The notes beneath the pieces are model-generated. The model did no database searches, had not been told where the DNA came from, and saw only the letters and a program-made list of their open reading frames with translations. Position numbers and translations under genes: made by a program. From Microbacteriaceae bacterium PS02344 (GTDB taxonomy: Bacteria; Actinomycetota; Actinomycetes; Actinomycetales; Microbacteriaceae): 64,000 bases of DNA. Of the stretch, positions 6,086 to 14,722 are shown piece after piece (the first letter of the stretch is position 1; every line of letters begins with the position of its first letter). The stretch spans positions 1-64,000 of the forward strand of contig JASCNZ010000008.1 in NCBI GenBank assembly GCA_029959905.1, given 5' to 3'.

Positions 6086-7197
6086 GCGCGGGGCTCCTTC
6101 ACGGTCTCGGCAGTACGGGCCTTGTTCTGCTCGAGCAGTTCCTCTGCGGTCACCTCGCGGATCGACGCCTGGTCGGACTTGCGCGTGACCAGGTTCTTCA
6201 CAGCGGGGATGACTCCGTCGGGCATGAAGAGCACGACGATGCCGAGCAGGATGCCCGTGGCGATGAGGTGGAACTGCGTGTCACCGAACTCGAGCTTGAA
6301 GTACTCCAGCGCCACACCGACCACCACGGCGCCGAGCAACGGGCCGAAGAGGTTGCGCACCCCGCCGAGCAGCGCCATGAGCACCATGTACGAGCCGATG
6401 AGGATCGAGAACTGGAAGATCGGGTCGAGGTCGCCGAACCACAGGGCGTACAGTCCGCCGCCGAGCGACACGAACAGCGCCGAGAGGATGTAGGCGATGA
6501 GCTTGTAGCGGGTGGTCGGCACTCCCAGCGACTGCGCCTTGTCCTCGTCCTCGCGGATGGACTTGAGCGCGGTGCCGAACTTGGAGCGGTCGATGATCCA
6601 CCACACCAGCAGCGCCACGGCGAGCAGGGCGACGAACAGGTAGAAGAACACGCGATGGTGCTCGGGGCGCAGCATGCCGGGGAACGGGCGCGGCACGTTC
6701 AGCCCCTCGGAGCCGCCGGTCACGTCGCGCCAGCTCTGGAAGACCAGGAGCATGATGAGCACGAAGGCGATCGAGACGATCACGAACGAGGCGCCGCGCA
6801 CCCGAAGGGCGGCGATGCCGATCGGGATGGAGACGATCGCCACCAGCAGGGCGGCGAGGATCCAGGCGACGAATCCCGGGAGCTCGAGGTACTTGATGAG
6901 CAGCCCGGTGCCGTAGGCGCCGAGTCCGAAGTAGGCGGCGTGGCCGAGGGAGATGTACCCCGTGAACCCGCCCATGAAGTTCCACCCCGTCGACAGCACG
7001 GCGTAGTTGAGGATGACGACGCCCGCCGACAGGATGTACGGGTTCGGGGCGATCGTCGGGAACGAGAGGATGAGCGCCGCGCCGACGACGAGGGCGGCGA
7101 TCTTGACCCACGTCGTGGATCGGCGGCGGACAGGAGCGGGCGGAGCGATGACGACCGTCTCGGTCGCGATCGGTTCGCGGCTAGAAACGCTGGGCAA
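6082..7197 (-). CDS. livM: LivM-type ABC transporter permease
   Basis: A 371-residue inner-membrane permease with about nine hydrophobic segments after a soluble 30-residue N-terminus. LivM hallmarks include NYAVLSTGWNFMGGFTGYISLGHAAYFGLGAYG and the cytoplasmic coupling loop FGTALKSIREDEDKAQSLGVPTTRYKL, here given only as landmarks. Start TTG at 7197, preceded by GGAGG at 5 bp; it overlaps the LivH stop by 17 bp. A hydrophilic C-terminal tail of about 30 residues (TRKSDQASIREVTAEELLEQ) is longer than in many relatives. Confidence 0.9.
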   Translation of the reverse strand: MPSVSSREPIATETVVIAPPAPVRRRSTTWVKIAALVVGAALILSFPTIAPNPYILSAGVVILNYAVLSTGWNFMGGFTGYISLGHAAYFGLGAYGTGLLIKYLELPGFVAWILAALLVAIVSIPIGIAALRVRGASFVIVSIAFVLIMLLVFQSWRDVTGGSEGLNVPRPFPGMLRPEHHRVFFYLFVALLAVALLVWWIIDRSKFGTALKSIREDEDKAQSLGVPTTRYKLIAYILSALFVSLGGGLYALWFGDLDPIFQFSILIGSYMVLMALLGGVRNLFGPLLGAVVVGVALEYFKLEFGDTQFHLIATGILLGIVVLFMPDGVIPAVKNLVTRKSDQASIREVTAEELLEQNKARTAETVKEPRA

Positions 7198-8065
7198 GAC
7201 GACCTCCGAAGAATCCTTGCGGGCGGAACATCAGCGTGGCGAACAGGGCGACGTAGAAGATCGTCTGCGCCCACGTGGGTCCCAGGGGGAGCTGCAGCAG
7301 GCTCTGCGCGACTCCGAGGACGAGAGCCGCGATCGCGGCGCCCGGGATGCTGCCGAGGCCGCCGACGACGATGATCGCCATGAGCGGTCCGATCCAGTGC
7401 CAGTGCAGCGACGGGTAGATCGTGGCGTCGAGCGAGAGCGCCGTGCCGCCGATCGCGGCGGTGGCGAGGCCCAGGCCGAAGCCGTAGCCGGCCACACGGT
7501 CGGTGTTGATGCCGACCAGGCGCGCCGCCTCCGGGTGCTGGATCGTGGCGCGCAGCGCCTGCCCGAACCGCGTGTACTTGAGCAGCACGAACAGTCCGGC
7601 GAGCGCGACGGCCGCGAGGCCGAAGGCGATCAGCTTGACCACCGGCACCGAGGCGCCGAAGATCTCGAGGCTGGCACTCGCGTACGGCAGCGGGATGCGG
7701 CGCTGGGTGCCCGAGAAGAAGAACCCGAGCGCCCCCTCGATGATGAGCGCCACCGCGAAGGTGAGCAGCACCGACATCATGGTGAGCGTGAGGGGCTTGA
7801 GCCGCGACACGAGGAGCCGCTGCATCACGACGCCGGTGAGGAAGAACAGCGGCACCGTGACGACGAGCGACAGGAGCGGGTCGAGCCCGGTCTCCTTGTT
7901 GAACCACCAGGCCAGGTACGCGGCGAGGATGAGGAACGCGGAGTGCGCGATCATCACGACGCGCATGATGCCGAAGTAGAGGGTGAGGCCTGCGGCCAGG
8001 AGGGCGTAGAGCCCTCCCAGCAGCACGCCGAGGATCAGGCTTTGGAGAAGAAGAGAACCACTCAC
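7181..8065 (-). CDS. livH: LivH-type ABC transporter permease
   Basis: A 294-residue permease of the LivH family with eight or so membrane spans. LLGGLYALLAAGLTLYFGIM near residues 15-34 and GQALRATIQHPEAARLVGINTDRV (the EAA-type loop contacting the ATPase) are diagnostic. The GTG start at 8065 lies 10 bp after the stop of the binding-protein gene and has only a weak Shine-Dalgarno, so it probably depends on coupling. It forms the membrane channel with LivM. Confidence 0.9.
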   Translation of the reverse strand: MSGSLLLQSLILGVLLGGLYALLAAGLTLYFGIMRVVMIAHSAFLILAAYLAWWFNKETGLDPLLSLVVTVPLFFLTGVVMQRLLVSRLKPLTLTMMSVLLTFAVALIIEGALGFFFSGTQRRIPLPYASASLEIFGASVPVVKLIAFGLAAVALAGLFVLLKYTRFGQALRATIQHPEAARLVGINTDRVAGYGFGLGLATAAIGGTALSLDATIYPSLHWHWIGPLMAIIVVGGLGSIPGAAIAALVLGVAQSLLQLPLGPTWAQTIFYVALFATLMFRPQGFFGGRLAQRF

Positions 8066-8075
8066 GATGCGCGGA

Positions 8076-9311
8076 TCACCAGGTCGGCTTCGGGTAGAGG
8101 AAGTCGGCTTCCTTGACGTCCTCGGGGAGGACGATGCGGATCTCGCCGCCGACCCACTGCTGGATGAGGTGGGCGCCGGTGGGCTTGCCCGTCTCGTCCC
8201 AGCTGAGGGGGCCGACCACGGTGTCGACGGTGTTGTCGCGGAGCCAGTCGATGAGCTCCTGCTGGCACTCGCCCTGCTCGGCGCAGCCGACCGCCTCGAC
8301 GGCCGCGGCGACGACCTGACCGGTCGTGTAGGCGTTCGCCTCGTCCTCGGCCGGCGGGTTGCCGTGCATCTCGGTGTACTTCTCGACGAATTCGATGTTG
8401 CTCTCGAACTGCGAGTCGGGCGAGTACCCGGTGGGGGCGAGGATGCCCTCGGTCGCCCCGCCGATCGCCGAGGCGAACTCGGGGTTGGTCGGGGCCGTCG
8501 AGAACGCGGCGAGCTCGGGCTGGTAGTTGAGCTGCTGCAGCGCGATGATCAGGTTCACCGCATCCTGGTACTGGGTGCCGCCGATCACGATGTCGGCATC
8601 CGACTGCGCGATCTTCGCCGCGATCGTCGAGAAGTCCGTCGTGTTGGGCGGGTAGACCTCGTCGACGAGGATCTCGACGCCCGCGTCCTCCAGCTTGTCG
8701 CGGAGGCCGTAGGCGGTGCCCTGCGCGAACGGGTCGTCCATGGAGGCGACCGCGGCCGTCTCGGGGCGCTGGTCGTCGGGTAGCGCGAGCAGGTAATCGG
8801 CCAGGTTGTTGTAGTGGTCGTTCGCGATCGCGGGGGCGGCGTAGAAGAGGTTGTCGAAGCCCTGCTCGAAGACCTCGGCCGCGGCACCCGCCGGCTCGAC
8901 GAAGAGCATGCCGTACTCCTGGGCGACGCGGGCCGACGGCACGACGAGGCGGGTGGAGAACGGACCGAAGACGAGGTCGACCCCGTCCTGCGCGATGAGC
9001 GACTCGTAGTCGGAGACCACGCGGTCGGCGTTGGACTGGTCGTCGAGGATCTTCAGCTCGACCGGGCGGCCGAGCAGACCGCCGTTCTCGTTGACGATGT
9101 CGCGCCAGGCCTCGTAGCCGCGCTCGACGCCCTTGCCCGGCTCCGAGAAGTCGCCGGTGAGCGGCAGCGAGATGCCGATGACGATGGGGTCGTCCGATCC
9201 ACCCCCTTCCCCGGAGTCTCCGCCGCCGGAGCAGGCGGAGACCGTGAGAGCGGCGATGCCGAGCGATGCGATCGCTGCGGCCGTCCGTCGACGGTGTCGG
9301 GGTGCAGTCAT
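8076..9311 (-). CDS. LivK-like ABC transporter substrate-binding lipoprotein
   Basis: A 411-residue extracytoplasmic binding protein of the periplasmic binding type I (Peripla_BP_6) class. The N-terminus is basic (RHRRR), followed by a hydrophobic stretch and the lipobox LTVSAC, so it is lipid-anchored at about Cys27. The mature start IVIGISLPLTGDFSEPGKG is typical of Liv-class binders. First gene of the leftward operon; TAGGAG lies 7 bp before ATG 9311. Liv-class receptors bind amino acids, amides, urea and also aromatic or sugar-derived acids, so cargo identity must come from the downstream enzymes, which point to a carbohydrate or polyol. Confidence 0.9.
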   Translation of the reverse strand: MTAPRHRRRTAAAIASLGIAALTVSACSGGGDSGEGGGSDDPIVIGISLPLTGDFSEPGKGVERGYEAWRDIVNENGGLLGRPVELKILDDQSNADRVVSDYESLIAQDGVDLVFGPFSTRLVVPSARVAQEYGMLFVEPAGAAAEVFEQGFDNLFYAAPAIANDHYNNLADYLLALPDDQRPETAAVASMDDPFAQGTAYGLRDKLEDAGVEILVDEVYPPNTTDFSTIAAKIAQSDADIVIGGTQYQDAVNLIIALQQLNYQPELAAFSTAPTNPEFASAIGGATEGILAPTGYSPDSQFESNIEFVEKYTEMHGNPPAEDEANAYTTGQVVAAAVEAVGCAEQGECQQELIDWLRDNTVDTVVGPLSWDETGKPTGAHLIQQWVGGEIRIVLPEDVKEADFLYPKPTW

Positions 9312-9392: not shown

Positions 9393-9437
9393 CCCACAGC
9401 GCGATCAGCGTCGATTTTGCTCACAGGGGAGGTTTTC

Positions 9438-10448
9438 GTGAAGCGTACAGGCACGCCACGACTCATCGATGTCGCCGAAGCCGCGGGCGTCTCACTGGCG
9501 AGCGCCTCGCGCGCGATGTCAGGTGGCTCCGGCATCTCCCCCGAGGTCGCGGCGCACGTGCGGCAGGTCGCCCAGAAGCTCGGCTACGAGCCCAACCTGC
9601 ACGCCCGCGGTCTCGCCGGAGGACTCGTCCCCACCATCGGCCTGCTCGTGCACGAGATCGGAGACCCCTACTTCTCCGAGATCGCCAGCGGGGTGATCCG
9701 CAGCGCCACCGCCGAGAACCGCTCGGTGCAGATCGCGCAGGCCGACCGCACGCCCGAGAGCGAGCTGGCGCAGGTGCAGGCGCTGCTGCGCCAACGGGTC
9801 GGCTCGATCATCATCGCCGGTTCGGGCTACCGCGACCCGCACCACGAGGAGCGCATGACGCAGGCGCTCGCCGACTTCACGCTCGCGGGCGGGCGCGCCG
9901 CGGTGATCGGGCGCCACCACCTGCCGATCGACGCCGTGCTGCCGGACAACCGCCGTGCCGGAGCATCCGTCGGCCGCCATCTCGCCGACCTCGGCCACCG
10001 CCGCATCGGCGTGGTCGCCGGTCCGCTCGAACTCAACACCGTCTCCGACCGCATCGCGGGGCTGCGCGAGGCTACCGAGGCCGACGGCGTCGAGCTGGTC
10101 GTCGTGTCGAAGGCGTTCACCCGCGAGGGCGGCATCGCCGGTGTGCGCGAGCTGCTCGACCAGGAGGTGACCGCGATCGTGGGCCTCAACGACGCCATGG
10201 CCATCGGCATCCTCAGCGAGCTGCGCCAGCACGGCATCCGCGTGCCGGACGACATGTCGGTCGTGGGCTTCGACGACATCGCCGTCGCCGCCGACGTCGC
10301 TCCGGCCCTCACGACCGCACGCATCCCCATGTTCGAGATGGGACAGCACGCCGTCTCGCTGATCCTGCGACCCGCGAGCGACGAACCCCGCACCATCACG
10401 ACCGCGCACGAGCTGATCGTGCGCGGCTCCACCGCCCGCCCCCGCTGA
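9438..10448 (+). CDS. LacI/GalR family transcriptional repressor
   Basis: A 336-residue regulator with an N-terminal LacI helix-turn-helix (LIDVAEAAGVSLASASRAMSG, about residues 9-29), the hinge YEPNLHARGLAGG and a periplasmic-binding-like effector domain ending VVGFDDIAVAADVAPALTTAR. I start it at GTG 9438 because AGGGGAGG lies 5 bp upstream; the TTG at 9417 would put this ribosome site inside the gene. It is divergent from the importer operon, and the double operator between them is almost certainly its target. The inducer should be the imported compound or a metabolite of it. Confidence 0.92.
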   Translation: MKRTGTPRLIDVAEAAGVSLASASRAMSGGSGISPEVAAHVRQVAQKLGYEPNLHARGLAGGLVPTIGLLVHEIGDPYFSEIASGVIRSATAENRSVQIAQADRTPESELAQVQALLRQRVGSIIIAGSGYRDPHHEERMTQALADFTLAGGRAAVIGRHHLPIDAVLPDNRRAGASVGRHLADLGHRRIGVVAGPLELNTVSDRIAGLREATEADGVELVVVSKAFTREGGIAGVRELLDQEVTAIVGLNDAMAIGILSELRQHGIRVPDDMSVVGFDDIAVAADVAPALTTARIPMFEMGQHAVSLILRPASDEPRTITTAHELIVRGSTARPR

Positions 10449-10544: not shown

Positions 10545-10718
10545 TCAGTTCTTGAACGCGTCCTTCACGTTCTCACCGGCCTTCTTCACGTCGGACTTGG
10601 CCTGGTCGGCCTGGCCCTCGGCCTCGAGGCGCTCGTTGCCGGTCACCTTGCCGACGGCCTCCTTCGCCTTGCCGGCGATGTCCTCGGCGGCGTTCTTGAT
10701 CTTGTCATCGAGTCCCAT
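10545..10718 (-). CDS. CsbD family stress protein
   Basis: A 57-residue, highly charged helical protein beginning MGLDDKIKNAAEDIAGKAKE and ending KDAFKN. The D-K-x-x-x-A-E-D-x-x-G-K-x-K-E-x-x-G pattern is the CsbD signature; CsbD of Bacillus is a sigma-B-dependent general stress protein of unknown mechanism. ATG 10718 has AGGAGAG a few bases upstream. It lies downstream of the Asp23/AmaP operon, about 100 bp after its last stop, and may be co-transcribed with it, which fits a stress role. The gene is short and easily missed. Confidence 0.88.
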   Translation of the reverse strand: MGLDDKIKNAAEDIAGKAKEAVGKVTGNERLEAEGQADQAKSDVKKAGENVKDAFKN

Positions 10719-10820: not shown

Positions 10821-11435
10821 TCATGAGAGCCGCCGGGTGTCGCGGGCCAGCCGGGCGCGCAGCCCCGAGTGCACCGAGACGTAGGCGGCGGTATCGCGGC
10901 CGGTCAGCGTCGCCAGGTTCTCGAGCAGCATGTCGACGTGATCCACGAGCGCGCGGGGATCGGTGTTCTGCCGCGGGGTGACCGACACGTGCAGCACCGG
11001 CTGCCTCTTGACGTCGTCGGCGGTGACGTGGGTCGAGAGCACCTCGTCGCGACCGGCGAGCGAGTTCTTGATCGCATCCGACACGAACGCCTCGTCGACG
11101 GTGATGCGGCCGGCCTCGTTCTGCGCGCCCGACGAACGGAACACGGTCTTCGACCGGCGGTTGATCACGCTCGTCAGGGCCAGCACCAGCAGCACGATCA
11201 CGACGACGATCGCGGCAACGGCGACGAGCCCCACACCCGTCACCGTGCCGCCGGCGATGGCGGTGGCCGCGTTGGCCTGGTCCAGCCATGACCGGGCGCC
11301 CGTGCCGGCGGACTCCCAGATGTCCGCTGCGGGGCGCCAGCTCATGATCGCGATCCCGGCGGCCCCCATGCCGAGCAGGATCAGCCCGATCACGAGCAGC
11401 AGAGCGCGGTTCAGCGCGCGATTCGTACGGTTCAC
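10821..11435 (-). CDS. AmaP-like alkaline shock membrane anchor
   Basis: A 204-residue protein with two membrane segments (about residues 10-32 and 60-85: LLLVIGLILLGMGAAGIAIM and a Val/Ile-rich span) and a cytoplasmic domain with Asp23-like pattern ending GRDTAAYVSVHSGLRARLARDTRRLS. AmaP proteins tether Asp23 to the membrane. The start is GTG 11435, overlapping the stop of the DUF6286 gene by 4 bp, although the frame stays open upstream. Last of the five overlapping genes of the stress operon. Confidence 0.78.
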   Translation of the reverse strand: MNRTNRALNRALLLVIGLILLGMGAAGIAIMSWRPAADIWESAGTGARSWLDQANAATAIAGGTVTGVGLVAVAAIVVVIVLLVLALTSVINRRSKTVFRSSGAQNEAGRITVDEAFVSDAIKNSLAGRDEVLSTHVTADDVKRQPVLHVSVTPRQNTDPRALVDHVDMLLENLATLTGRDTAAYVSVHSGLRARLARDTRRLS

Positions 11436-12013
11436 AGGTCGTCCTCCTCCGGAGCGGGGCGCTCGACGCGCACGCGGGTGCGGGTGGCGCCGATCAGGCG
11501 GTAGCGGTCGATCGCGGCATCGGTCAGGCGGCGCACATCCGCCTCGTCGAGAGGGATGCCCGCACCGGGGCGCACCGTCACATCGACGCTGCGGTGGCCG
11601 ACGCCGACGACCACGCGGTCGCGGGCGATGCCGGTCTCGTCGGACACGTGCTGCGCGAGGGCGCTGGCGATCACGCCGTTGTCGACGACGACCGCACGGT
11701 CGCCCGCGTCGAGCACGCGCTTCGAGAGCCGGCCCGGCGTGATCGCCAGCCAGACGAAGATCAGGCCCAGCACCGCGAGCACCGCGCTGCCCGCGACGAT
11801 CAGCCCGACGGGCTGCGTCGGCAGACCGACCAGCCAGCCCGCGGCGGCCGACGGCGCGACGAGCAGCGCCGGTTGCGCGGCCAGGCTCAGCACGAGTTCG
11901 ATGCCGACGAAGACGAGCGCCGCGATCAGCAGGATGACGGCGACGAACATCGCCGTGGTCCGCGGCGAGTGGGTCTCGCGCCGCACGACACGGCGGAGGG
12001 CGGGACTGCTCAT
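11432..12013 (-). CDS. DUF6286-type membrane protein
   Basis: A 193-residue protein with a basic N-terminus (RRVVRRETHSPRT), two hydrophobic segments at about residues 21-45 and 65-90, and a soluble C-terminal domain ending in a conserved-looking ATRTRVRVERPAPEEDDL. The layout resembles AmaP, so it may be a second membrane partner for the Asp23-type proteins encoded upstream. It overlaps both neighbours by 4 bp. Function is unknown; the assignment rests on architecture and on the usual company of DUF6286 in actinobacterial Asp23 operons. Confidence 0.7.
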   Translation of the reverse strand: MSSPALRRVVRRETHSPRTTAMFVAVILLIAALVFVGIELVLSLAAQPALLVAPSAAAGWLVGLPTQPVGLIVAGSAVLAVLGLIFVWLAITPGRLSKRVLDAGDRAVVVDNGVIASALAQHVSDETGIARDRVVVGVGHRSVDVTVRPGAGIPLDEADVRRLTDAAIDRYRLIGATRTRVRVERPAPEEDDL

Positions 12014-12408
12014 CGGACTCTTCTCCTTTCGGGGACGCGGGCGCCGGTGACGACGAGGTCGACGCGGACGACATCCCTGCCGAACAGCCGGGCGAGGTCG
12101 TCACGCAGCCGCTCCTGCAGGCGGCGACCCTGCTCGAGCACGGGCACGGCGGCGGCGATCGCCGCGGTGTCGTCGAGCGGGGGGACGGGAAGGGGGGCGG
12201 AGACGCGGACGGCGACGCCGCCGACCCGCTCTCGAACGTCGACCTTCACGTCGCCGCGCGGCACGCCGATCAGGGTCGCCGACGCCTGCTCGGTGACCGT
12301 GCGGTAGACGCGTTCACGAACGTCGGTGCGGCCATGGACGGCCTCCGCCCCGGTGACGCCCCGCACGGGGACGCCACCGCTGGCGAGGTTCTGGTCGACG
12401 GCGGTCAT
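12010..12408 (-). CDS. Asp23/Gls24-like small protein
   Basis: A 132-residue soluble protein lacking membrane segments. The pattern RVYRTVTEQASATLIGVPRGDVKVDVRE followed by strands VAVRVSAPLPVP and VVRVDLVVTGARV is like the alternating helix and strand of the Asp23 domain, though divergent from the 169-residue Asp23 encoded two genes upstream. It overlaps both neighbours by 4 bp. Probably an interaction partner in the same membrane-associated complex; the family call is moderate. Confidence 0.6.
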   Translation of the reverse strand: MTAVDQNLASGGVPVRGVTGAEAVHGRTDVRERVYRTVTEQASATLIGVPRGDVKVDVRERVGGVAVRVSAPLPVPPLDDTAAIAAAVPVLEQGRRLQERLRDDLARLFGRDVVRVDLVVTGARVPERRRVR

Positions 12409-12596
12409 CGGGAGGTGCGCCGCCCGCTGACGACGTCGGCGAGGCCGCGGACGTCGAGCTTGCCGGACATGATCCGGCCGATCAGAGCCCCGACGCCGGC
12501 GAACAGAGCTGCGAGGAGGAATCCCCAGAACCCGAACATCAGCGCCGCGAGGGCGAGGAGGGCGCCGACGACGGCGCCGGTGGCGGTGGCACTCAT
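12405..12596 (-). CDS. DUF2273-like small membrane protein
   Basis: Sixty-three residues, two hydrophobic segments (AVVGALLALAALMFGFWGFL and LLAALFAGVGALIGRIM overlap into a hairpin) and a basic tail GLADVVSGRRTSR. DUF2273 proteins are small membrane partners found with Asp23 and AmaP. It starts 4 bp inside the end of the Asp23 gene and ends 4 bp inside the next one. Too short for much more to be read from sequence. Confidence 0.75.
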   Translation of the reverse strand: MSATATGAVVGALLALAALMFGFWGFLLAALFAGVGALIGRIMSGKLDVRGLADVVSGRRTSR

Positions 12597-13102
12597 GCGA
12601 CTCGCGACTCCTCGTTGTCGTCGTGGTCGTCGCCGGGCACGTGCACGTCGTTGACCTCGACGTTGACCTCGACGACCTCGAGGCCGACCAGGCGGCTGAT
12701 CGCGCCGGCCACGGCCGCGCGCACGTTGCTCGCCACGTCCTGGATGGGTGCGGGGTACTCGACGACGATCGTGATGTCGGCCGCGGCCTGGGTCTCGCCG
12801 ACCTCGACCTTGACGCCCTGCGCGAGGTCGGTGGCGTTCATGACGTCGCGGATCGCGCCGAAAGCGCGGGCTCCGCCTCCACCGAGCGCGTAGACGCCGG
12901 CGACCTCACGGGCCGCGATGCCCGCGACCTTGGCGACGACGCCGTCGGCGATCGTGGTCTTGCCCGCCGCGTCGGCGTCGGCCGGAACGCGTGCGGTCGA
13001 GAAAGCGGTGGAGCGGTCGACGCGCGACGCCGGGGTGCCGGGGGTGGGCACGACGGCCGGGGTCTTCTCGTCGACGACGGTCTTCTGGTCCTGTGCAGCC
13101 AT
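12593..13102 (-). CDS. Asp23/Gls24 family envelope stress protein
   Basis: A 169-residue protein. After a 45-residue low-complexity Thr/Pro/Asp-rich N-terminus comes the Asp23 domain: KTTIADGVVAKVAGIAAREVAGVYALGG, VKVEVGETQAAADITIVVEYPAPI, then VRAAVAGAISRLVGLEVVEVNVEVNDVHV. The C-terminus is acidic (DDHDDNEESRVA). Asp23 in Staphylococcus coats the inner membrane face through AmaP and responds to alkali and envelope stress. First gene of the leftward five-gene operon, divergent from an ECF sigma factor 140 bp away, which is the likely regulator. Confidence 0.9.
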   Translation of the reverse strand: MAAQDQKTVVDEKTPAVVPTPGTPASRVDRSTAFSTARVPADADAAGKTTIADGVVAKVAGIAAREVAGVYALGGGGARAFGAIRDVMNATDLAQGVKVEVGETQAAADITIVVEYPAPIQDVASNVRAAVAGAISRLVGLEVVEVNVEVNDVHVPGDDHDDNEESRVA

Positions 13103-13242
13103 GATGTCCTCTATCTCACTCGGTGACCGGATTCAAGGCCTCGGTGGCCCCTTCCGGGAGCGGTAGGTTCGCTCACAAGTAAGACGCGTGGGGCGTCTGA
13201 TTCGTCACAGAAAAGTTCCGACGAATTCCGAGGGGGTGGGAG

Positions 13243-13815
13243 ATGGACCGCGCAGACGGCCGTCCGCGGGTGGACTACTCCCCTCTCTCCGACGCCGCGC
13301 TCGTGAGCCGGGCGCAGGATGGGGACTCCGGTGCGTTCCGTGAGATCGTGCGTCGCCACAGCGGATCGATGCGCGCCTACGTCTCGCGCGTGGTGGGATC
13401 GCTGAGCGAGGCGGACGACGTGGTGCAGAACGCGCTGCTGAACGCCTGGCGTCAGCTCGATACCCTTCGGGACGCCGCCGCCGTGAAGTCGTGGCTCATG
13501 CAGATCGCGAGCCGCGAGGCCTTCGCCCTCCTCCGACGGCGCCCCGTCGACCAGTCGCTCACGGGGTACGATCGCCCGTACACCGGAGTCGATCAGCCCG
13601 AGCAGGCGGCCATCCGAAACGCACAGCTCACCGCGCTCTCGCGAGCGCTCGAGACGCTTCCCGAGGATCAGCGACGGTGCTGGCTGCTGCGTCAGGTCGC
13701 AGAACTCAGCTACGCCGAGATTGCAGAGGAAATGGAAACGTCACCCAGTACGGTCCGGGGCCTCCTCTCCCGCGCCCGCACGAGCATCACGGTGCAGATG
13801 GGAGGGTGGCGATGA
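13243..13815 (+). CDS. ECF-type RNA polymerase sigma factor
   Basis: A 190-residue sigma-70-family factor. Region 2 is ALVSRAQDGDSGAFREIVRRH through DDVVQNALLNAW (about residues 18-70); region 4 is LETLPEDQRRCWLLRQVAELSYAEIAEEM plus the recognition helix TSPSTVRGLLSRARTSI. No extra C-terminal domain. GAGGGGGTGGGAG precedes ATG 13243. The stop overlaps the start of the anti-sigma-like gene by 4 bp. With Asp23 genes on both sides it probably drives this envelope-stress block; I could not identify its own promoter motif with confidence. Confidence 0.9.
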   Translation: MDRADGRPRVDYSPLSDAALVSRAQDGDSGAFREIVRRHSGSMRAYVSRVVGSLSEADDVVQNALLNAWRQLDTLRDAAAVKSWLMQIASREAFALLRRRPVDQSLTGYDRPYTGVDQPEQAAIRNAQLTALSRALETLPEDQRRCWLLRQVAELSYAEIAEEMETSPSTVRGLLSRARTSITVQMGGWR

Positions 13816-14402
13816 GCGATCACGACGACCTCGCGACCGCCCTCGACTGCGGCCGTACGATCGAGGAGCTGGCCGACTACCTCGATGCCGGGCGCGTGCC
13901 CGCAGACCCGCACATCGAGACGTGCCCCGAATGCCTCAACGCGCTCGAAGCGCTGGAGCGCGTCGGGCGGCTGTCGCGCGACCTGATCGACGACGACGCT
14001 GCGCACCTCGCCCCACCGCCGGAGTCGTGGTTCGAGCGCATCTTCACGACCATCCACGAAGAGCTGCGCGCCGGTCGCAGCTTCCCGATCAGCCACCCGG
14101 ACCCGCGGGTGCGCATCACCGTGACCGAGGGCGCGGTGCGCGCGCTGCTGCGCGACAGCGGAGACGCCATCGACGGCGTGTTCGTCAGCCGCACCGAGAT
14201 CGTCGGCGACGCCGAGACGCCGGGCGCCCCGGTGCAGATCAACCTCACCGCCTCGGTGCGCTTCGGCACGAGCATCCAGCAGCTCACCGAAGAGCTGCGA
14301 GCCACGGCCTACGCCGTGCTCGCCGCGCACACCGAGCTCGCAGTCACGGCCGTCGACATCACCGTCGAAGACATCTTCACCGACTCCAAGGACACACCAT
14401 GA
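13812..14402 (+). CDS. anti-sigma-like zinc-binding domain fused to Asp23 domain
   Basis: A 196-residue soluble protein. Residues 1-60 have helices TIEELADYLDAG and the motif H34-x3-C38-x2-C41 (HIETCPEC), the HxxxCxxC core of zinc-associated anti-sigma domains. Residues from about 98 to 185 (VRITVTEGAVRALLRDSG, then VQINLTASVRFGTSIQQLTEELRATAYAVL, ending VTAVDITVEDIF) follow the Asp23 pattern. There is no membrane span, unlike most ECF anti-sigmas. ATG 13812 overlaps the sigma stop by 4 bp. I infer it binds the sigma factor and senses the Asp23 lattice or a partner. The Asp23 assignment of the C-terminal half is by pattern only. Confidence 0.72.
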   Translation: MSDHDDLATALDCGRTIEELADYLDAGRVPADPHIETCPECLNALEALERVGRLSRDLIDDDAAHLAPPPESWFERIFTTIHEELRAGRSFPISHPDPRVRITVTEGAVRALLRDSGDAIDGVFVSRTEIVGDAETPGAPVQINLTASVRFGTSIQQLTEELRATAYAVLAAHTELAVTAVDITVEDIFTDSKDTP

Positions 14403-14722
14403 GCGCACCCGCACCCCAGGACCCCGCCGCCCTGGCGGCCCGCGTGCGCACCGTGCCCGGCGTGACGAGCGTGTTCGCACCGAGACCCACCCTCGCCCAG
14501 ATCCCCCAGGTGCTCGCCGCGGCCACCGCGACGGCCGACGACGGTCCGGTCGCCGACCTCCTGATCAGCACGGATGCCGAGGGCGCGGTCACGGTGTCGA
14601 CGCGCATCTCCACATCGGCGGAGGACAGCTCGGTCGAGACCGCCCGTCGTGTCGCCGACGCGCTGATCGCGCAGACGCCCGACAGCGCGGAGATCGTTCT
14701 GCAGGTCGCCCGCATCCGCTGA
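14399..14722 (+). CDS. small protein of the sigma/Asp23 operon
   Basis: A 107-residue soluble protein with no clear family. It starts by a 4-bp overlap with the upstream gene, is rich in Ala and Thr, and has an alternating strand-helix pattern: ARVRTVPGVTSVFAPRP, VADLLISTDAEGAVTVSTRIST, then a helix ARRVADALIAQTP and a final strand EIVLQVARIR. That strand-helix-strand pattern loosely recalls half an Asp23 domain. Probably a third component of the regulatory module; function unknown. Confidence 0.75.
   Translation: MSAPAPQDPAALAARVRTVPGVTSVFAPRPTLAQIPQVLAAATATADDGPVADLLISTDAEGAVTVSTRISTSAEDSSVETARRVADALIAQTPDSAEIVLQVARIR

Follow-up and report, generated by a model that had tools for sequence, protein, structure and literature searches.

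Gene organisation and domain architecture

The window analysed here comprises 64,000 nucleotides of Microbacteriaceae bacterium PS02344 (contig JASCNZ010000008.1, positions 1 to 64,000), a soil bacterium related to Microbacterium. This study concerns two divergent gene units: a plus-strand unit headed by an extracytoplasmic function (ECF) sigma factor and a minus-strand operon of five genes including one for an Asp23 family protein, which the sigma factor and its partner protein very probably switch on. The sigma unit encodes the ECF sigma factor (13243–13815; 190 aa, with regions 2 and 4 matched by Pfam Sigma70_r2 at 1.7e-12 and Sigma70_r4_2 at 3.5e-16), a 196-aa fusion protein termed ASF (13812–14402) and the 107-aa product of the third gene, termed C3 (14399–14722), and both junctions are 4-bp overlaps. 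The gene positions in a preliminary description of this DNA agreed with our reading of the open reading frames (ORFs) in the window. The closest ASF from a named species was that of Microbacterium galbinum (81% identity in the best segment). Gene pairing, domain content, the fold shared by C3 and the C-terminal domain of ASF, the promoter motif and its orientation, and gene co-occurrence were all computed.

ASF is composed of an N-terminal domain resembling zinc-associated anti-sigma (ZAS) domains (approximately residues 8–86) and an Asp23-like domain (approximately residues 88–192). The latter, proposed in the preliminary description, was supported by both profile searches and structure prediction. 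Residues 140–188 of ASF matched Pfam Asp23 (PF03780) with E = 5.5e-5 and a score of 24 bits; because the curated cut-off is 28 bits, the domain is termed Asp23-like here. Some relatives exceeded this cut-off (e.g., 42.6 and 37.4 bits), and 35 of the 36 relatives scanned singly at a lax limit of E = 10 contained the match (best, 8.4e-9). Of seven further ASF proteins, six gave a Pfam Asp23 match with E of 1 or less, each scoring under the cut-off, and the ASF of Streptomyces NBC_01558 gave none. In profile–profile comparison, the C-terminal domain matched Asp23 proteins encoded by the adjacent operons at 97.9%, compared with 0.2% for control comparisons of the sigma factor or CsbD with Asp23.

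The AlphaFold2 model of ASF, built from 59 sequences, had a mean predicted local distance difference test score (pLDDT) of 89.3 and consisted of helices at residues 17–25, 33–37, 39–65 and 71–85 followed by an alpha/beta domain at approximately 90–189. The pLDDT reached 94–97 at residues 11–60 and was 69–80 in the less certain block at residues 71–90; the predicted template modelling score of 0.59 makes the relative placing of the two halves unsure. ASF lacks a membrane-type stretch, as previously noted, with a maximum Kyte–Doolittle hydropathy over 19 residues of 1.28, against 3.0 and 3.4 in the AmaP-like proteins of the divergent operon. Family-wide values were obtained from 141 ASF rows, consisting of 61 (60 regions picked from the listed matches, and the window) and the best 80 of 260 relatives; these sets overlap and represent 126 distinct proteins. 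The family models were seeded with the window proteins, and genes were assigned by best score, as the Asp23 and ASF models cross-match. Twenty distant regions were chosen among the matches listed in a wider class-level search. Hydropathy exceeded 1.6 in 9 of the 141 rows and in two of the 20 distant members, the highest value being 1.88. In fold searches with VIA-align, the ASF C-terminal domain (Z up to 9.8) and C3 (Z up to 10.9) both resembled most closely the C-terminal domains of cation-diffusion transporters. These matches were taken to reflect a common alpha/beta arrangement and not metal transport. The fold matches listed included no anti-sigma structure, in searches that barely covered the helical N-terminal domain, and the family profile had no match at E up to 10 among the sequences of solved structures.

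C3, which was absent from the preliminary description, followed ASF in 120 of the 126 distinct loci. It had no Pfam match of note; by profile, with C3 proteins of at least 140 aa excluded, it matched the ASF C-terminal domain at 87% and Asp23 at 79%, and C3 profiles with shuffled columns reached at most 0.2% against Asp23. Its model (pLDDT 83; below 50 at residues 44–48) had the same alpha/beta core as the ASF C-terminal domain, and its counterparts in two Streptomyces records are annotated as Asp23/Gls24, with weak Pfam Asp23 matches of 18.3 and 20.9 bits (cut-off, 28). Conservation after ASF, the model, the profile and the Streptomyces annotation together identify C3 as a protein with an Asp23-like fold.

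The N-terminal domain carries the HxxxCxxC motif reported in the preliminary description with the correct residue numbers (H34-x3-C38-x2-C41), and an upstream cysteine, C13, which the description had overlooked, is a likely fourth metal ligand completing the ZAS pattern. The ligands lie before the first predicted helix, within the second and at the start of the third. Their C-H-C-C order and their placement relative to the helices resemble those in RsrA. A profile of the N-terminal domain from the clade of the window matched 30 zf-HC2-type segments at 88.3%, and at 94.6% (range 94–95%) when distant members were added; these segments came from the same family of genomes and were cut out by the HxxxCxxC pattern, and the distant ASF set was chosen by C-H-C-C. 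Pfam zf-HC2 was matched neither by ASF (E up to 1) nor among the nine families listed for 36 members (E up to 10), and ASF scored 15.3 bits with the RsrA equivalog TIGR03988, for which the curated cut-off is 62.5.

The zinc ligands vary considerably within the family. C13 and C38 occurred together in 27 of the 141 rows and were both absent in 114, while C41 was found in 122, H34 in 10 and HxxxCxxC by simple pattern in 9. Three cysteines were present in 21 distinct proteins, seven of which also had H34, and all three were kept in every one of the 27 rows of a single clade (99/89 support). Among the 20 regions with distant relatives of the same class, C-H-C-C was present in 17, absent in two with a reduced N-terminal domain and unclear in one (L301). 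The two reduced relatives (L297 and L298; 145 and 148 aa), whose shortened N-terminal domains lack the zinc set, still lie beside sigma factor and Asp23 genes. C-H-C-C was also found in two annotated Streptomyces ASF proteins. The simplest reading of this distribution, made without an outgroup-rooted tree, is that the zinc set may be ancestral and was lost in most Microbacteriaceae members. A late gain in one clade was dropped as an explanation, since the distant members possess C-H-C-C, and the absence of C13 and C38 from most rows led us to reject the motif as the family-wide core of the system. The Asp23 domain persists across the ASF family while C13 and C38 vary, which suggests that this domain supplies the constant input.

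The minus-strand operon has an overlap of exactly 4 bp at each of its four junctions. Its first gene encodes an Asp23 family protein (12593–13102; Pfam Asp23 1.4e-26, 93 bits) and is followed by genes for a small DUF2273 membrane protein (12405–12596; Pfam 29.5 bits, cut-off 25.4), a soluble 132-aa protein (12010–12408), an AmaP-like/DUF6286-like membrane protein (11432–12013; DUF6286 33 bits, cut-off 35) and a second AmaP-like membrane protein with a GTG start (10821–11435). The preliminary description of this operon as five overlapping genes encoding Asp23, DUF2273 and two AmaP-like anchors largely held, with two amendments. The gene it had left without a name encodes a further Asp23-like protein (profile match to Asp23, 91%; nothing in Pfam with E of 1 or less), and both membrane proteins fall under the curated 55 bits of the AmaP equivalog NF033218 (32.2 and 33.6 bits, respectively), hence AmaP-like. 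The second of them has two hydrophobic segments by eye and a hydropathy peak of 3.40, and neither showed a profile link to Asp23 (0.2% and 4.4%). Thus, four of the eight proteins of the two units, including ASF, are Asp23-like. Directly downstream of the operon on the same strand lies a gene for a CsbD-like stress protein (10545–10718; Pfam CsbD 8.5e-19), which is a candidate member of the unit. The genes beyond it (9417–10448 and 7181–9311) resemble, by eye, those for a regulator of the LacI type and for an ABC permease and its binding protein, and are apparently unrelated.

Conservation of the locus and its promoter motif

The association of the two units is conserved well beyond the window. 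Across the 126 distinct loci, the 4-bp overlap between the sigma factor and ASF genes was found in 117, an Asp23 gene within the fetched region in 105 (some regions being cut by contig ends), and Asp23, DUF2273 and an AmaP/DUF6286-like gene together in 84; the Asp23 gene was divergent and at most 1.5 kb from the sigma factor gene in 81. A CsbD gene was present in the region of 65 loci. Streptomyces sp. NBC_01558 and KN37 are annotated with the same order, with DUF6286, small-protein and Asp23 genes divergent from those for the sigma factor, ASF and C3. A plasmid of Microbacterium proteolyticum (L323, 4441–5573) carries a sigma–ASF pair with three cysteines and IS21 genes nearby, and no Asp23 operon is annotated within approximately 5 kb of that pair.

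Gene content was also linked at the genome level. Among 199 Microbacteriaceae genomes, ASF was detected in 73 and Asp23 above the cut-off in 73; 72 genomes had both and 125 had neither, so that 72 of the 74 with either protein have both. The exceptions were one genome with ASF only (G084) and one with Asp23 only (G198), in which the match lies near a contig end. Five genera (g6, g17, g22, g34 and g38) contained members with both proteins and members with neither, indicating that ASF and Asp23 change together more than once. Outside Microbacteriaceae this lockstep fails, and it was rejected as a class-wide rule. In 9 of 20 class regions picked for Asp23-only hits (L302–L307 and L309–L311), an ASF-like gene was divergent from Asp23 without an adjoining sigma-model match, and an LPLGG motif was seen by eye in several of these nine genes, whose likeness to ASF lies in the C-terminal half. 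They are a possible sigma-less derivative of the system.

A promoter-like site faces the Asp23 operon from the intergenic region (13181–13208, minus strand). It consists of GTGACGA (13208–13202), a 15-base spacer and CGTC (13186–13183), and its −35 element, spacer and −10 CGTC fit the ECF promoter form. The exact core TGACG-N16-CGTC faced Asp23 in 59 of 94 divergent intergenic regions, near copies included. When the spacer in GTGACGA-N-CGTCY was varied over all loci, again with near copies, a length of 15 gave 75 matches and other lengths 0–12, while four scrambled controls gave 0–5 at any spacing. In a stricter count, which excluded near-identical upstream regions, regions shorter than 200 bases and Asp23 hits below 75 bits, 54 of the 91 non-redundant Asp23 genes had the core in their upstream region; in 49 of the 54 it lay no more than 125 bases from the gene start, as assigned by rule. 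The corresponding controls averaged 0.39 matches (maximum 3) over 100 two-base-block shuffles, and the reversed pattern gave none. The promoter of ECF41 (TGTCACA-n16-CGTC) is described with the same −10 CGTC and spacing (PMC3426412).

Because the site is partly symmetrical (GACG...CGTC), a short scan matches both strands, and its orientation was therefore judged from loci in which the operons lie apart. In these non-divergent loci, the core faced Asp23 in 12 of 30 rows (12 of 24 without weak Asp23 hits) and the sigma factor gene in only 2 of 47, which does not support the motif as the sigma factor gene's own promoter. The site faces a CsbD gene in one locus (L076) and a DUF6286-like gene in another (L085); the latter belongs to G084, the genome with ASF and without Asp23, which thus retains the site. 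Only 1 of 67 CsbD upstream regions contained the core, so that CsbD is not indicated as a general direct target. Two GACG...CGTCAC-type sites were seen by eye between the Asp23 and sigma factor genes of Frondihabitans sucicola (L125). Within the window, 13181–13208 is the sole site with fewer than two mismatches, and the whole genome has three exact sites, the other two inside long ORFs.

Proposed regulation and competing explanations

These results link the sigma–ASF unit to the Asp23 operon as its target, and this link is well supported. We propose that the ZAS-like helical domain of ASF binds the neighbouring ECF sigma factor and keeps it inactive, and that the Asp23-like domain would be the input side, contacting Asp23-fold partners such as C3, the Asp23/AmaP layer beneath the membrane, or both. 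A change in this contact would free the sigma factor, which would then transcribe the divergent operon from GTGACGA-N15-CGTC. Such an arrangement would form a closed loop in which the Asp23 layer reports on itself through an inhibitor bearing the fold of the layer that it controls. The more likely sign is negative feedback, an intact or abundant layer keeping ASF active. We favour this model as a whole with slightly more confidence than doubt. A stronger version, in which ASF belongs to the Asp23 layer as a subunit or imitates one, its Asp23 domain docks with C3 or Asp23, the layer's physical state determines how active the sigma factor is, the sigma output is the layer, and zinc/thiol chemistry is an ancestral second input dropped by most Microbacteriaceae members, is put forward tentatively, as a possibility that we doubt somewhat more than we believe. 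The preliminary description had already suggested a switch of this general kind, one responding to envelope stress, in which the anti-sigma factor would be held or competed for by the Asp23 sheet. Our results support the pairing of an anti-sigma-like protein that has an Asp23 domain with an ECF sigma factor, and, through synteny, promoter motif and co-occurrence within the family, its tie to the Asp23 operon. They do not support a universal zinc switch, given the absence of C13 and C38 from most of the family.

Several observations weigh against the proposed model. Compared with the RsrA-like subset of segments (n = 7), the N-terminal domain scored 12.9% for the clade of the window, 83.1% for the distant members and 31.6% for both together. 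Masking the cysteines, or the cysteines and histidines, lowered the ZAS profile match to 1%–5%, although the register was kept in five of six comparisons, and the non-cysteine branch of ASF reached only 2% by profile. Moreover, a match is favoured by the way in which the two sets were assembled, the ZAS segments and the distant ASF proteins having both been picked by their cysteine/histidine pattern. The masking and subset results thus imply that the ZAS assignment rests on the ligand pattern, helix layout and gene pairing and not on general sequence likeness. In the 20 class regions picked for Asp23-only hits, no sigma-model match was found within approximately 5 kb on each side in 18; the sigma factor gene was beside the unit in one of the remaining two (L321) and at the far edge in the other (L311). 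The exact core was missing upstream of 37 of the 91 Asp23 genes, some of which have near variants by eye, and in 10 of the 47 non-divergent rows the site lay near the sigma factor gene and pointed away from it, in some cases to a CsbD or DUF6286-like gene. A one-mismatch scan of the genome gave 63 sites (60 of them inexact), approximately five times the 12 of the reversed control; a wider regulon is therefore possible, and the excess may reflect coding bias or real targets. In Streptomyces venezuelae, an Asp23 gene is reported to fall after ethanol shock, unlike simple stress induction (PMC9769785).

The main rival is a redox switch, in which ASF would be an RsrA-like thiol sensor; oxidation would expel zinc, a C13–C41 or C13–C38 disulfide would free the sigma factor, and the Asp23 domain would only oligomerise or position the protein near the membrane. 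C13, H34, C38 and C41 parallel RsrA Cys11, His37, Cys41 and Cys44 in order, and Cys11 is described as necessary for redox sensing (PMC4960319). The helix layout, the strict retention of three cysteines in one clade and the C-H-C-C set in 17 of the 20 distant loci fit this explanation as well. However, 114 of the 141 rows have neither C13 nor C38 while the sigma–ASF–C3 layout and Asp23 persist across the set, 14 of the 21 distinct three-cysteine proteins lack H34, and the sigma factor appears to target an envelope operon and not a set of thiol genes. Since C13 and C38 are missing from most family members, a thiol switch cannot be universal, and we regard it as an unlikely basis of the system, although it may provide a second input in the clade of the window and in Streptomyces.

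Two further explanations separate the sigma factor from ASF or from the motif. If GTGACGA-N15-CGTC were recognised by a different sigma factor or by some other regulator, the local sigma factor would have other targets. The connection between the sigma factor and the motif is indirect, the site is rarely upstream of the sigma factor gene itself, and its partial symmetry could suit a dimeric DNA-binding protein; the occurrence of only three exact sites in the genome, two of them within long ORFs, argues against such a reader, which we consider rather improbable. Improbable, too, is the explanation that ASF serves the Asp23 layer as a structural or accessory component and just happens to be co-transcribed with the sigma factor, whose control would then come from its own level or from C3. 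The dependence of the anti-sigma domain assignment on cysteines and histidines speaks for it, and five of seven plasmid records matching ASF are named only Asp23/Gls24 family protein, the other two being hypothetical. Nevertheless, a purely structural protein would account poorly for the extra N-terminal helical domain and the overlapping sigma–ASF pairing in 117 of 126 loci, and an anti-sigma role has been predicted in print for Asp23-family proteins beside the sigma groups ECF286 and ECF292.

Relation to known systems and implications

The proposal that soluble Asp23-family proteins serve as anti-sigma factors is thus already in print: ECF286 and ECF292 adjoin such proteins, for which this role was predicted without experimental data (PMC8999054). 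The locus in the window resembles these groups in having an ECF sigma factor gene beside a gene for a soluble Asp23-family protein, ASF itself scoring below the Pfam Asp23 cut-off. For these two groups, the text mentions neither a ZAS domain nor a target promoter, and neither a third protein nor the Asp23 operon as a target (PMC8999054). In a literature search that covered mainly openly accessible papers, no account was found of a zinc-type domain on Asp23-family anti-sigma factors, of their promoter, of a third protein or of control of an Asp23 operon by such a sigma factor. The ECF-type promoter GTGACGA-N15-CGTC facing the Asp23 operon is new here.

ChrR, which acts on RpoE of Rhodobacter, combines a ZAS domain with a C-terminal cupin-like sensor (PMC8999054). 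ASF would be similar in being soluble and in joining an N-terminal ZAS-type domain to a separate C-terminal sensing domain, but it has an Asp23-like domain in place of the cupin and its zinc ligands have been lost in most of one family. It differs from RsrA in the added Asp23-like domain and in ligand spacing, with 25 residues between C13 and C38 compared with 30 between Cys11 and Cys41. In staphylococci, Asp23 is under SigB control. The staphylococcal protein is described as held at the membrane by AmaP and as able to form filaments (PMC6954212), which would offer ASF something to dock with. The operon in the window similarly encodes Asp23 together with membrane anchor-like proteins, but it faces an ECF unit with the same fold, whereas the staphylococcal text mentions no adjoining pair of ECF sigma and anti-sigma factors (PMC6954212).

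ASF is thus predicted to be an anti-sigma-like protein that is soluble, has an input domain of an unusual kind and acts on a clearly marked target. If the sigma factor of the window belongs to groups of the ECF286/ECF292 type, the proposed system would give these sigma factors a target and an input. The desiccation response of a relative, Curtobacterium, in which genes for Asp23/Gls24, GlsB and CsbD rise together with two unspecified sigma factors, offers a candidate inducing condition (PMC12029717). The molecular function of Asp23 has been described as still unclear (PMC6954212), and a regulator with the Asp23 fold, a defined promoter and one obvious target would open the function or sensing role of the Asp23 layer to direct genetic and biochemical study.

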